DNA from: Candidatus Thioglobus pontius
GTDB taxonomy: Bacteria; Pseudomonadota; Gammaproteobacteria; PS1; Pseudothioglobaceae
DNA length: 57,689 nucleotides
Direction of reading: 5' to 3'
Assembly (NCBI GenBank): GCA_014384345.1
Contig: JACNGB010000023.1
Span: 1 to 57,689, forward strand
Position numbers and translations under genes: made by a program. Below, one piece after another: positions 29,498 through 54,597 of the stretch (its first letter is position 1; every line of letters starts with the position of its first letter). The notes under the pieces were generated by a model. The model was not told where the DNA came from. It saw only the letters and a list, made by a program, of their open reading frames with translations, and did no database searches.

Positions 29498-31960
29498 TTG
29501 ACTCATATTGTAAACGCATCAGGGTGTAAATACAATAAAATTACAAGCATGGGCAATTCTTGTTTTCACTGCGGACTCGCGGTTAATAGTCATAACCGTA
29601 TTCAAGCGAATATTGATCAATCACCGCAGGATTTTTGCTGTGCTGGTTGTGCCAGTGTGTGTCAAACCATTCATCAAAGTGGATTAGGCGCTTTTTATCA
29701 GCAACAAACCAGTTCTGTATTACCGGCCGTTGAGCTTGAATATCCACTAGAATTTTATGATGCGCCGGCTTTCCAGCAGCCCTTTTTGGAAGTAGCTGAT
29801 GAAGGTGAAAAGATTATCACCCTGATTAGCGACACCATTCATTGCGCCGCTTGTGTCTGGCTAATTGAAAGAGCGATTGGATCTCTCAAAGGGGTTAATT
29901 GGGTACGTGCTAATTTAACCGATAAGCGTATTAGAATTAGCTGGCGTGATGATGAAATCCAGTTGTCGGTTATTATGCAGCGTTTGGCTGATTTGGGCTA
30001 TGGCGCCATGCCTTATGAACAAAATATTGCTGAGGCAATTGCCAATAAGGCTAACAAATCTATGCTTTATAGAATTGGGTTTGCTGCGTTCACCATGATG
30101 AATTTGCTGTGGATTTCTATTGCCATGTATACCGGCGCTAGTGATGGAAAATACCATCAATATTTTCAATGGCTTGGTTTTGCTTTGGCCACACCAACGT
30201 TATTTTATTCGGGCTTAGGTTTTTTAACTAGTGCGTATAACGGCATCAAAAACGGTTTAATGAATATGGATGTGCCGATCAGTATTGGTGCGTTAACCAC
30301 CTATTTTTATTCCGTTTATGTGCTACTGGGATTTTCAGCTAAAGGCGAAGTCTATTTTGATACGGTGGTTAATTTTATCTTTGTGATATTAATTGGACGA
30401 TATTTAGAAGGCTCTGCAAAAAAATCATCGTTATCCGCCTCAAGCTCCTTGCAACAACTACAGCCTAAGGTTGCTTTGGTGATTAACAATAATGAAGAGT
30501 TGATTACACCCATTAGTGCTATTGTTGCTGGCGACCGGGTTTTGATTAAACCTGGTGAGCGGATTCCAGTTGATGGGCATGTAATTGTGGGTACGAGTGA
30601 GACAGACGAATCATTATTGAGTGGCGAATCTAGGCCAGTTGCTAAGCAAGTGGGTGATGAAGTATTTGCTGGTTCGGTCAATGGCCAGGGCGCATTGGAA
30701 ATACAAGTCACCAGTACGTTAAAACAATCTGCATTAGGAAAGATTGTTAGCTTGGTGGAAAGCACTCAGCATAACAAAAGTTCTGTGGTTTGCAGCATTG
30801 ATAAAATTATTCCTTATTTTGTTGGGGTGACGATTTTTTTAGCAACTGCCACTTTTATTTATTGGTACCCATACGATTTTGATTTGGCCTTGTTAAGCGC
30901 AACAAGCGTTTTGATTATTACCTGCCCTTGTGCATTTGGCTTGGCAACACCAATGAGTATTGCGGTGGCCAGTGCTGCTGCTGTTAAGGAAAAGATGCTG
31001 ATCAAAAATAGTGATGTGTTGGAAGTGCTAGATCAGGTTGATTGGGTGGTATTTGACAAAACTGGCACACTAACTTTGGGCGAATTTGAACTTACCCAAG
31101 TTGAATCCGATCGGTCAGATTTATTACAAATTATGGCCAGTATTGAAAAGCGTTCAGAACATCCTTTGGCCAAAGCAATTGTTGCTAATAATACGCAAGC
31201 ATTTTTGCCAGTGAGCGAGTTTAACTCCACACCTGGTCAGGGTGTAGAGGCAGTTGTCGCGCAGCAACAGTACAAAGTGGGTCGCTTATCGTTTGTATTG
31301 GGCGATCATCAGATGGATGAGGATTTATTGAAAAAATCTCAAGCAATTGAACAACAAGGGGCCAGTTGTATTTGGTGCGCTGATCAGACGACTGTATTGG
31401 GCTTTGTGGCCTTGTCTGATCAAGTTAAAGCAGATGCAAAATCAGTTGTTTCACAATTGCATGCTTTAGGCAAGCAGGTGAGTATTTTAAGTGGCGATAG
31501 CCAGACAGTCACGCAACAGGTGGCTAATTCGTTGGGCGTTAAACACGTCATTGCTCAAGCTTTGCCTGAAGACAAGGCGAATTACATTAAGCAGTTACAA
31601 CAGAACGATGCCCAAGTATTGATGGTGGGTGATGGAGTGAATGATGCGCCTGCACTGGTTCAGGCTAATGCCAGTATGGCCATTGGCTCAGGTAGTGATG
31701 TATCAGTTAACCATGCTGATGTGGTGTTGTTAAAATCAACATTATCACCTATATTGTCAATGATCAACTTGGCCAAACGCACTAACCAAACTATTAAACA
31801 AAACATTGTTTTTGCCTTAATGTATAACGCATTTATGGTGCCATTAGCAATGATGGCTAAGGTGACACCGCTATTTGCAGCGATTGTTATGCCAATTAGC
31901 TCGTTGGTTGTTATTGGCAATGCGGCGCGACTACGAAAGAAAACAAAACAAACTTTATAA
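29498..31960 (+). CDS. ccoI: CcoI/FixI-type copper-translocating P-type ATPase
   Basis: This P1B ATPase exports copper needed for cbb3-type cytochrome oxidase assembly. The protein (up to 820 aa; ATG 29549 is an alternative start) has an N-terminal cysteine region (CFHCG at 22-26, FCCAGC at 46-51), an HMA domain with C116-A-A-C119 (TIHCAACVW), LLSGES, the ion motif TCPCAFGLATP, the phosphorylation motif DKTGTLT, SEHPLA and MVGDGVNDAPALV. The paired N-terminal cysteine region distinguishes the CcoI branch from CopA. The ccoNOQP oxidase genes and ccoS are not nearby. Confidence 0.9.
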   Translation: MTHIVNASGCKYNKITSMGNSCFHCGLAVNSHNRIQANIDQSPQDFCCAGCASVCQTIHQSGLGAFYQQQTSSVLPAVELEYPLEFYDAPAFQQPFLEVADEGEKIITLISDTIHCAACVWLIERAIGSLKGVNWVRANLTDKRIRISWRDDEIQLSVIMQRLADLGYGAMPYEQNIAEAIANKANKSMLYRIGFAAFTMMNLLWISIAMYTGASDGKYHQYFQWLGFALATPTLFYSGLGFLTSAYNGIKNGLMNMDVPISIGALTTYFYSVYVLLGFSAKGEVYFDTVVNFIFVILIGRYLEGSAKKSSLSASSSLQQLQPKVALVINNNEELITPISAIVAGDRVLIKPGERIPVDGHVIVGTSETDESLLSGESRPVAKQVGDEVFAGSVNGQGALEIQVTSTLKQSALGKIVSLVESTQHNKSSVVCSIDKIIPYFVGVTIFLATATFIYWYPYDFDLALLSATSVLIITCPCAFGLATPMSIAVASAAAVKEKMLIKNSDVLEVLDQVDWVVFDKTGTLTLGEFELTQVESDRSDLLQIMASIEKRSEHPLAKAIVANNTQAFLPVSEFNSTPGQGVEAVVAQQQYKVGRLSFVLGDHQMDEDLLKKSQAIEQQGASCIWCADQTTVLGFVALSDQVKADAKSVVSQLHALGKQVSILSGDSQTVTQQVANSLGVKHVIAQALPEDKANYIKQLQQNDAQVLMVGDGVNDAPALVQANASMAIGSGSDVSVNHADVVLLKSTLSPILSMINLAKRTNQTIKQNIVFALMYNAFMVPLAMMAKVTPLFAAIVMPISSLVVIGNAARLRKKTKQTL

Positions 31961-51545: not shown

Positions 51546-53087
51546 TTGAATATAGCGCAAAAAATTCAATTACTTAAGCCTCACGCCCAATTGCTTTCAG
51601 GCAATTTAATGGGCATTGAAAAAGAGGGGTTGCGGGTTTCTAGAAAGGGCGGATTATCACAAGCGCCACATCCAAAAAACCTAGGTTGCGCGTTAACACA
51701 TCCAAATATCACCACTGATTTTTCAGAATCACTGCTTGAATTGGTTACCCCGCCACTGCCTGATGCTAAGTCGGTACTTAATTTTTTGCAAGATACGCAA
51801 CATTATTTATATTGTCGTTTACCCAAGGATCAGAATTTTTGGCCGGCAAGTATGCCCTGTGTTATTCGAGGAGAGACCTATATTCCTATTGCCCAATACG
51901 GATCAAGCAATCGAGCAAAGATGAAAACGGTTTACCGCCAGGGATTGGCCAATCGTTATGGCAGTGTGATGCAAACCATAGCTGGCATTCATTTTAACTA
52001 TTCATTCTCAACAGAGTTTATTAAGCAGTGCTGTTTGTTCTCGAACGTTGAGCAAAGTCAAGACGAAGCCTATATGGCGCTTACTCGAAATGTAGTGCGC
52101 TACGGTTGGATTGTGCCTTATTTATTTGGCGCCTCTCCAGCAGTGTGTAAGTCATTTTTAAAGGGTTATCACCAGCATTCATTAGTTGAATTTAACGACT
52201 CTACTTTGTATGAGCCTTATGCGACCTCCTTGCGTATGGGCGATATTGGTTATCAAAATCTACGCGAGGATGAGGCAGGTGTAAAGGCTAACTATAATTC
52301 TTTGGATCATTATATTCATTCGTTGAAGTCAGGTATGTCAGCCAGCTGTAGTGAATATGAGCGTATCGGTATTAAAAAAAATGGTCATTATCAGCAGCTT
52401 AATACCAATATTCTGCAAATTGAAAATGAATATTATGCGTCAGTTCGCCCTAAGCCGCTGGTTAAAGCAGGCCAGAAGCCATTAGACAGTTTGAGTGATC
52501 AAGGCATTGCCTATATTGAACTCAGATCTTTAGATGTTAATCCATCATTACCTATGGGTATTGATGAGCAGCAAATTCATTTCTTGGAAGTGTTTTTATT
52601 ATTTTGTTTGTTAAAAGAATCGCCCGCTATTTCCACTAGGGAGCAATTTGAAATTGATGGTAATGATCAGTTAATCGCTCATGAAGGGCGCAAACCAAAC
52701 TTAACACTCAAACATCAATCTAAAGAGGTTTCAATTGCTGAATTTGGCAGTCAGCTTGCCACTGATTTAGAGCTGTGTGCTGCGCTGTTTGGCAAAGACT
52801 ATCAAACACAGGTGAGTGATATTTGTAGACGTTTTTCCAATCCTGAATTAACACCTTCAGCGCAAATGCTTGAGCGAATGCGTAATAAAAATCAAGGATT
52901 TTTTGATGATACTAATACATTTGCCAAGCAATATCGTCGCGAATTTTTAGCTAATGATATTAATCAGATACACTTTGATTATCTTGATGCTCAAGCAAAA
53001 TCATCTTGCAAACGTCAGCGTGAGATTGAAGAGTCTGATACCATAGGCTTTGATGAGTTTTTATCCCAGTATTTTGAACAAACTTAA
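51546..53087 (+). CDS. gshA: Glutamate-cysteine ligase
   Basis: GshA makes gamma-glutamylcysteine for glutathione. The 513-aa protein has LMGIEKEGLRVSRKGGLSQ, ALTHPNITTDFSESLLEL, IAGIHFNYSFS, PYLFGASPAVC and IAYIELRSLDVNPSLPMG, matching the E. coli class I family and length. It uses a TTG start: the next ATG would remove conserved sequence. The stop is now 166 nt before mnmE because of an inserted MITE. Confidence 0.94.
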   Translation: MNIAQKIQLLKPHAQLLSGNLMGIEKEGLRVSRKGGLSQAPHPKNLGCALTHPNITTDFSESLLELVTPPLPDAKSVLNFLQDTQHYLYCRLPKDQNFWPASMPCVIRGETYIPIAQYGSSNRAKMKTVYRQGLANRYGSVMQTIAGIHFNYSFSTEFIKQCCLFSNVEQSQDEAYMALTRNVVRYGWIVPYLFGASPAVCKSFLKGYHQHSLVEFNDSTLYEPYATSLRMGDIGYQNLREDEAGVKANYNSLDHYIHSLKSGMSASCSEYERIGIKKNGHYQQLNTNILQIENEYYASVRPKPLVKAGQKPLDSLSDQGIAYIELRSLDVNPSLPMGIDEQQIHFLEVFLLFCLLKESPAISTREQFEIDGNDQLIAHEGRKPNLTLKHQSKEVSIAEFGSQLATDLELCAALFGKDYQTQVSDICRRFSNPELTPSAQMLERMRNKNQGFFDDTNTFAKQYRREFLANDINQIHFDYLDAQAKSSCKRQREIEESDTIGFDEFLSQYFEQT

Positions 53088-53093
53088 CTATGA

Positions 53094-53253
53094 GGGCACC
53101 TCCAAAAACCCCAATACAATTTATGAAACACATAAAACCGCACCTTTTTCAGCCAAAAATTCATCAAATAACTAGCTATTCTATTAATTTTTGGCTGAAA
53201 AATGTACTATTTTCTGCATTCCCTAAATCGCACCGGGGTTTCTGGAGGTGTCC
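53094..53253. mobile_element. 160-bp MITE inserted at the mnmE start codon
   Basis: GGGCACCTCCAAAAACCCC (53094-53112) and GGGGTTTCTGGAGGTGTCC (53235-53253) are terminal inverted repeats with two mismatches. An inner perfect 17-bp repeat lies at 53145-53161 and 53186-53202. A four-base target duplication ATGA flanks it (53090-53093 and 53254-53257). There is no coding capacity. The right repeat places GGAGGTG immediately before the mnmE ATG. Confidence 0.8.
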
Positions 53254-53257
53254 ATGA
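53244..53257 (+). promoter_or_regulatory. mnmE ribosome binding site supplied by the MITE
   Basis: GGAGGTG (53244-53250) is a near-perfect anti-16S match ending three bases before ATG 53254. All of it belongs to the right terminal repeat of the MITE, and the ATG belongs to the target-site duplication. Confidence 0.75.
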
Positions 53258-54597
53258 GCCATAGCGAATCAACCATTTGTGCATTAGCCAGTAGTATTGG
53301 TAAAGGCGGCATTGGTGTCGTGCGCGTTTCAGGCCCACTTTGTCAAGCCATTGCTGAACAAATGTTAGGGTTTGTGCCCAAGGCTCGTTATGCGCATTAT
53401 GGTTCATTTTTTAATCAAGATAAGGTAGAAATTGATCAAGGTATTGCGTTATATTTCCCTGGCCCTCATTCATTTACAGGCGAGGATGTTCTAGAGTTTC
53501 AAGGGCATGGCGGCATAAGTGTTATGCGTTCATTGCTGGAATCTGCCATTGGGCTTGGCGCCCAAGCAGCAACGCCGGGTGAGTTTTCAAAGCGCGCCTT
53601 TTTAAATGGAAAAATGGATTTGGTGCAGGCAGAAGCAGTAGCTGACTTGATTGACGCCAACTCTGAGCAAGCTTCACGCTCTGCACTTAGATCGTTAACC
53701 GGTGTGTTTTCAGCACAGGTTAATGCGCTGACTCGATCTATTATTGACTTGCGTATTTTTGTTGAGGCGACCATTGATTTTTCAGATGAAGAAATTGATT
53801 TTCTGCAATCTGAACAGGTGAAAGAAAAAACTCAGGCCATTAAAGTAGAAATTGAGCAAATTCTACACTCGGCCAATCAAGGTGCTATTTTGAGAGAGGG
53901 GCTTAATGTGGCCATTGCGGGAAAGCCAAATGCGGGCAAATCTTCTTTACTAAATGCATTAACGCAACGTTCTAGTGCGATTGTGACAGATATTGCTGGC
54001 ACCACCCGAGACGTGTTGCGTGAAACCATTCATATTAATGGCATGCCGCTCAATATTATTGATACTGCAGGATTGCATGATAGTGATGATGTGGTTGAAC
54101 AAGAGGGCATTAAAAGAGCGCGCGACGTAATTGCCAATGCAGATGTGGTGTTAATGATGTATGACGCACAAGATCAAAATCCTGATTTTTCTTTATTGCC
54201 AGATAATATTCAATATAAAAATTTACTCATTATTAAGAATAAGGTTGATTTAACCAATGAGTCTATTGAAAAAACCATGGTTGATGGCTCGACCCAATTG
54301 TCAATTTGTGCAAAAGAGACTAAAGGTATTGAGCTGCTTAGACAAGAGCTGTCAGATATTGCCGGTCTTGATAGCGGTGCAGAAGGCGTTGTGCTGGCTA
54401 GAAAACGCCATATTATTGCACTTGAAGAATCACAGAATAGTATTAACAACGCACTACTTCAGCTTGAAGGTGGCGCTGTTGAGTTAATGGCTGAAGATTT
54501 GCGCCATGCAGGGGTTGCTATGGGTAGTATTACTGGTGAATTCTCTTCAGATGATTTATTAGGCGAAATTTTTTCTTCTTTTTGTATTGGTAAGTAG
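53254..54597 (+). CDS. mnmE: tRNA modification GTPase MnmE
   Basis: MnmE with MnmG modifies wobble uridines of tRNA. The 447-aa protein has TICALASSIGKGGIGVVRVS, the P-loop AGKPNAGKSSLLNAL, GTTRDVL, DTAGLHDSDD, NKVDL and the C-terminal CIGK with its essential Cys. I chose ATG 53254, which has the MITE-derived Shine-Dalgarno sequence; the GTG at 53248 lies inside the element. mnmE is usually beside yidC, but here it is about 36 kb away. Confidence 0.95.
   Translation: MSHSESTICALASSIGKGGIGVVRVSGPLCQAIAEQMLGFVPKARYAHYGSFFNQDKVEIDQGIALYFPGPHSFTGEDVLEFQGHGGISVMRSLLESAIGLGAQAATPGEFSKRAFLNGKMDLVQAEAVADLIDANSEQASRSALRSLTGVFSAQVNALTRSIIDLRIFVEATIDFSDEEIDFLQSEQVKEKTQAIKVEIEQILHSANQGAILREGLNVAIAGKPNAGKSSLLNALTQRSSAIVTDIAGTTRDVLRETIHINGMPLNIIDTAGLHDSDDVVEQEGIKRARDVIANADVVLMMYDAQDQNPDFSLLPDNIQYKNLLIIKNKVDLTNESIEKTMVDGSTQLSICAKETKGIELLRQELSDIAGLDSGAEGVVLARKRHIIALEESQNSINNALLQLEGGAVELMAEDLRHAGVAMGSITGEFSSDDLLGEIFSSFCIGK

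Follow-up and report, generated by a model that had tools for sequence, protein, structure and literature searches.

The 160-bp palindrome that separates gshA from mnmE in the window, a 57,689-nucleotide stretch that constitutes contig C42 of genome G000 (1.25 Mb, nearly complete), is a non-autonomous MITE with IS5-type ends, inserted such that its right end places a strong Shine-Dalgarno (SD) sequence directly ahead of the mnmE start codon. The reading that we favor, with a probability of roughly 0.6, is that the element entered a tight junction, that its SD is closed in the mRNA by pairing between the two element ends, and that mnmE is coupled to gshA through partial opening of this hairpin. 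More surprising than the insertion itself is the family to which the element belongs, in which a palindromic core, conserved and with an almost invariant apex, is combined with exchangeable transposon ends.

The element at the gshA-mnmE junction

gshA, which encodes glutamate-cysteine ligase (51546-53087, forward strand, start taken from an ORF scan; Pfam Glu_cys_ligase), terminates with TAA at 53085-53087, leaving 6 nucleotides between the stop codon and the element (53094-53253). mnmE, encoding the tRNA-modifying GTPase (53254-54597, forward strand; Pfam TrmE_N and MnmE_helical; 35 of 35 relatives searched), follows directly. Its N-terminus aligns with those of relatives from the ATG at 53254 onward, which identifies this codon as the true start, as the earlier note on this DNA had presumed. 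The element is bounded by 19-bp inverted repeats, GGGCACCTCCAAAAACCCC on the left (53094-53112) and GGGGTTTCTGGAGGTGTCC on the right (53235-53253), that match at 17 of 19 positions, and the palindromy extends over the whole length at 76%; for the end sequence, 0.01 chance matches are expected in the 57-kb window. A target duplication, ATGA, flanks the repeats on both sides (53090-53093 and 53254-53257), with the right copy including the mnmE start codon, and joining the flanks without the element yields TAA-CT-ATGAGC. The interior (53113-53234) is a core common to three end types in Thioglobaceae. In the predicted fold, a 17-bp inner stem pairs 53145-53161 with 53186-53202, and the conserved apex TCATCAAATAACTAGCTATTCTATT (53161-53185; family consensus TCRTCAAATARCNNGCTATTCTCCTC) lies between its arms. 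All of these features are given on the forward strand.

With a length below ~300 bp, inverted ends, a target duplication, several copies, and no capacity to encode a transposase, the feature has the properties of a MITE; the ORF list contains no frame of at least 60 aa inside it. A role as promoter or terminator was rejected, as neither a sigma-70-type promoter nor an intrinsic terminator was matched in 52950-53400. Membership in a known structured RNA family was rejected as well: in Rfam 15 the element had no match above the gathering score, and the sub-threshold hits were of the chance type.

The same junction is free of the element in nine congeners, with the gshA stop located 2 nucleotides before the ATG in eight of them and 3 nucleotides in one (for example, TAATTATGAGT in G010 and TGAATATGAAT in G001), from which it follows that the element is an insertion. 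Together with the inverted ends and the ATGA duplication, these empty sites, which the earlier note had predicted, bear out its proposal that a MITE had inserted at the mnmE start codon. For the nearest relative, G011, the assembly gave no mnmE match except distant GTPases.

The sequence GGAGGTG in the right end (53244-53250) is the SD supplied to mnmE, with the last base of GGAGG 5 nucleotides upstream of the ATG. The predicted hybrid energy to the 16S tail is -10.6 kcal/mol with the element, compared to +0.4 kcal/mol without it, in agreement with the earlier suggestion that the right end provides an SD. Across copies with the same ends (type A, below), the energies range from -6.4 to -10.6 kcal/mol, whereas the joined flanks mostly lie above -5 kcal/mol, and elements with the two other end types (B and C) range from -2.2 to +2.6 kcal/mol. 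The gain in SD strength is thus real and restricted to type-A ends.

The left end contains CACCTCC, the complement of the right-end SD. In the predicted mRNA fold, the two element ends are paired with each other, all seven bases of GGAGGUG are engaged (unpaired fraction 0.0), and freeing the SD costs 19.6 kcal/mol. When the 5' part of the mRNA was masked, as might happen with a ribosome positioned on or close to the gshA stop, the cost fell to 13.6, 8.3, and 5.6 kcal/mol with masking to 53097, 53100, and 53103, respectively. Because the left-end anti-SD closes the SD in this fold, with the base of the stem 6 nucleotides after the gshA stop, mnmE is likely still dependent on gshA, in contrast to the independence that had been proposed for it.

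The sequence of events can be outlined as follows. A MITE with IS5-type ends entered the tight gshA/mnmE junction of the Thioglobus lineage with a 4-bp duplication, and the duplicated ATGA kept the mnmE start codon intact while the right end contributed a strong SD. The element-free junction, with no SD to speak of, presumably relies on its 2-nucleotide spacing. In the mRNA with the insertion, the element ends would pair and close the SD, and a ribosome terminating on gshA would begin to cover the left strand of the stem 6 nucleotides past the stop. In this way, the close stop/start coupling of mnmE would most likely have given way to a coupling that works by opening part of the hairpin, and mnmE output would be lower or gshA-dependent, with weaker translation if the hairpin stays closed. 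Against this model, the mRNA covered by a ribosome on the gshA stop should extend only to ~53097-53098, which would free the base of the stem but not the SD. The predicted coupling, and any effect on the MnmE level, may also be altered by how the mRNA folds in the cell, by RNase cleavage, or by proteins that bind it.

One core, three end types, and a conserved apex

Matches to the core or the element were found in 13 of 57 relatives, often covering the core alone. Within Thioglobaceae, the same 120-bp core is combined with three end types: type A (GGGCACCTCCAAAAACCCC) with a 4-bp duplication, and types B (GAGACCACTGCATTAACCC) and C (GGGACTGTTGAATATTGAA), each with a 5-bp duplication. The ends of the element have therefore been swapped around a shared interior.

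G000 itself carries copies at four places, including the mnmE junction, and many more are present in relatives. The copy on contig C36 is 91% identical, carries a TAAA duplication, and lies immediately after a stop codon. On C19, a copy with an internal deletion is located between ftsA and lpxC and is flanked by ATGA; its right ATGA is the lpxC start, preceded by GGAGGTG at the distance seen in the mnmE copy. The ftsA/lpxC insertion is present at full length (190 bp) in G011, and the junction is empty in ten other congeners. Comparison of the full-length and deleted copies indicates that the core was lost in G000 while both ends and the SD were retained. The fourth copy, on C9, is diverged, has other ends, and is located at tsaB. 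This type-B element (L003) is shared with contig C197 of G011 (L028) and lies 3 nucleotides before the tsaB start, without an SD. In relatives, type-A copies are found a few bases upstream of tadA, proB, purU, and other genes; together with lpxC, these cases show that type A has inserted at start codons more than once, as the earlier note had envisaged.

The gshA-mnmE operon was itself a recurrent target. A type-B element occupies the same gshA/mnmE junction in G022 (L038), in G014 a type-C element separates mnmE from the histidine-kinase gene that follows it (L047), and a type-B element is found upstream of gshA, at the nudix/gshA junction, in G001 (L030). Elements of different end types have thus arrived in this operon independently and repeatedly.

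In an alignment of 39 elements, the invariant residues fall mostly in loops, and the stems vary with compensation: compensatory double changes occur in 24 of 46 stem pairs. The stem covariation score is 0.333, compared to 0.136 in shuffles (0 of 500 shuffles reach the observed value), and it falls to 0.07-0.12 when the partners are slid; these values are to be read with the caveats that the structure was derived from the same sequences, that related copies are not independent, that pairing may be kept at the DNA level, and that end swapping adds changes in the outer stem.

An additional hairpin, CTAGCGCCACACAGCAGTCCTCTAGGAGGGTT or similar, is present at one and the same position within the left arm of the core in copies that differ in end type (L014, L003, L057, L058, L063, and L067). 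In other copies, an unlike insert, ATACCCCTCAAGGGGGTACTGAAAAGAG, is found close to the left end.

Outside Thioglobaceae, the apex TCRTCAAATARCNNGCTATTCTCCTC is central in MITE-like palindromes of Thiomicrospira microaerophila, of Lysobacterales and Alcanivoracaceae MAGs, and of Endozoicomonas, and these palindromes have unrelated ends. The apex was detected in 9 of 369 gammaproteobacterial genomes, compared to 0 for a reversed control pattern, with 34 occurrences in a single genome, G179. The loci concerned are L251-L291 and L292-L321 (for example, L287 at 2330-2500, L272, L264, and L299). Virus-borne copies were rejected, as IMG/VR contained no apex match; the Thiomicrospira element likewise had no plasmid match. 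No known family with this apex was present in the searched libraries, and the literature search returned neither a paper with its string nor one linking a MITE with SUP05 or Thioglobus.

Insertion sites, orientation, and competing explanations

Positions were compared for 71 non-redundant elements with both ends located, a sample drawn from similarity searches rather than an exhaustive census, which limits all counts below. The right end lies within 10 nucleotides of a start ATG in 7 of 25 type-A, 9 of 34 type-B, and 6 of 12 type-C elements; the SD-less types B and C taken together are thus start-adjacent in 15 of 46 cases, against 7 of 25 for type A (Fisher p 0.79). Over all types, the end at the start codon is the right rather than the left one at a ratio of 22:1. 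Under random placement within co-directional gaps, 6.1 start-adjacent type-A elements are expected compared to 7 observed (p 0.29), and for all types the numbers are 15.2 and 20 (p 0.006). Twelve of 36 co-directional insertions fall into gaps of at most 6 bp, which account for 2.9% of insertion positions (p ~2e-10), with the background taken from the co-directional insertion positions of one 57-kb window with simple ORF calls. Within Thioglobaceae, 36 elements are oriented with transcription and 10 against it (p 0.00016). Members of the family survive for the most part where a stop and a start codon lie close together, and they point along the direction of transcription. An orientation bias general to the apex family was rejected, since apex elements outside Thioglobaceae show none (>> 11, << 12). 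With regard to the expectation that copies would sit upstream of start codons in the same orientation more often than chance, the part concerning orientation stood, and the excess of type A next to starts did not materialize.

Three other accounts of the junction compete with hairpin-mediated coupling. The best of them, which has a real but lesser claim, is that the element has little effect on mnmE and that such elements turn up at tight junctions only because duplicating a stop/start site of 4-5 bp spares both genes and because AT-rich targets, TTAA, ATAAT, and ATGA among them, are frequent in such places. Consistent with such tolerance, the target duplications are rich in A and T and in many cases extend into a stop or start codon, the SD-less types do equally well, and start adjacency of type A is what gap size predicts; the account leaves unexplained, however, both the orientation bias in tight junctions and the conserved apex with its covarying stem.

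Those same features are the strength of a second and somewhat less probable account, in which the core would be a functional RNA module, such as a hairpin for processing, anti-polarity, or protein binding, that acts in the sense orientation only and lets operons tolerate the insertions, with the ends being exchangeable vehicles. It would accommodate the invariant apex and loop residues and the covarying stems across three end types, the bias in Thioglobaceae, and the retention of the apex in elements of other families with unrelated ends. It is less easily reconciled with the failure to match Rfam and with the balanced orientations outside Thioglobaceae, and constraints acting on the DNA could likewise preserve the covariation of the stem.

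Finally, it is unlikely that the SD is an open, ready-made ribosome-binding site that frees mnmE from gshA and that SD-bearing ends drive accumulation at start codons, since, despite GGAGG at ideal spacing, strong hybrid energies at 7 of 7 type-A start-codon insertions, and native junctions with weak or no SD, the SD is predicted to be fully paired with the left end, and both ends carry an outward SD, yet nearly always the right one adjoins the start. Because SD-less types are equally frequent at start codons and the gap-based null accounts for type A, the SD was rejected as the cause of start-codon insertion, contrary to what the earlier note had supposed.

Mobilization and relation to known systems

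An exact 4-bp duplication is present at 17 of 25 type-A copies, compared to 1 of 84 at control offsets. Among the relatives, G089 carries a 1,292-bp IS whose ends (GGGCACCTCTAAAAACC..) are identical to the MITE left end at 17 of 19 positions and whose 338-aa transposase contains Pfam DUF772 and DDE_Tnp_1 and matches NCBIfam NF033581 (IS5 family, 262 bits). Four distinct copies of this IS were identified, with 4-bp duplications at two of the four. Relatives of the transposase (E 1e-40) were absent from G000 and, among 83 genomes, were found only in G089. The element thus shares its ends with an autonomous element but has no such partner in its own genome, and the mobilizing link is drawn from end sequence and duplication length only; on these grounds, the mobilizing enzyme would be an IS5-family transposase. 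Searches for autonomous partners of end types B and C returned none, with two candidate regions lacking a transposase-like ORF.

Like the mnmE element, MITEAba12 is short and non-coding, is flanked by short target duplications, has inverted ends that match those of an IS5-family transposon, and can affect neighboring genes (PMC6382973). The duplications of MITEAba12 are 9 bp long, its secondary structure is weak, its promoters point outward, and neither orientation is preferred (PMC6382973), in contrast to the 4-bp duplication, the predicted stable hairpin over the whole length, the lack of a sigma-70 match, and the biased orientation in Thioglobaceae described here. ERIC and Correia/NEMIS are likewise palindromic MITEs in operons whose RNA fold alters the mRNA, and they are known to be transcribed; their described effects involve RNase E or RNase III cleavage, promoters, and IHF sites, and that of ERIC depends on orientation and ribosomes (PMC2229807, PMC10969869). 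The present copies differ in having an SD and an anti-SD where the stem opens and in being placed on start codons; the comparison with ERIC, Correia, RUP, and BOX was made by published description. The Chunjie MITE of Geobacter, as far as it is presented where cited in PMC10969869, is among the closest known systems. Most apex copies share with CGTC-tagged REP sequences the CGTC tag, a short palindrome, and an unpaired tail (PMC3733652). REP sequences, however, stand alone and have 8-9 bp stems with loops of 4-5 nucleotides (PMC3733652), whereas the apex palindrome AATARC-NN-GCTATT comprises 6 bp around 2 nucleotides at the center of a 160-bp MITE. With CATC in the mnmE copy and this different palindrome, identity with CGTC-tagged REP was rejected. 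The proposed coupling resembles cases of translational coupling by RNA unfolding, in which a ribosome on the upstream gene unfolds a structure and so uncovers the ribosome-binding site further downstream (PMC12548453), except that here the structure was brought by a mobile element and the coupling is predicted.

Empty, SD-bearing, and SD-less versions of like junctions, including gshA/mnmE itself in two genera, form a natural series that lets one ask how operons cope with elements placed between a stop codon and the following start. More generally, one palindromic core with a near-invariant apex and unrelated transposon ends was described in none of the libraries or papers searched. A further possibility, less likely than not, is that the core is an unrecognized mobile RNA or DNA module that has spread in Gammaproteobacteria with various IS ends, that in the compact operons of Thioglobaceae it settles in the sense orientation at stop/start junctions and re-wires translational coupling there, and that its apex is read by a host factor. 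Should such a host partner exist, the apex would constitute a new recognition motif in mobile DNA or mRNA of bacteria.

Two minor observations concern individual loci. In G092, a relative with a 2.8-Mb genome, three near-identical flanks (L170, L171, and L172) carry the same insertion; their similarity suggests a segmental duplication, and they were counted as one event. In G000, a solitary end, GGGCGCCTCTAAAAACCCA, one base different from the IS end of G089, is found on C39 at 31534-31552 (L178, near 2035-2053), where it forms the last codons of a mobA-like gene and is possibly a relic or a chance match.
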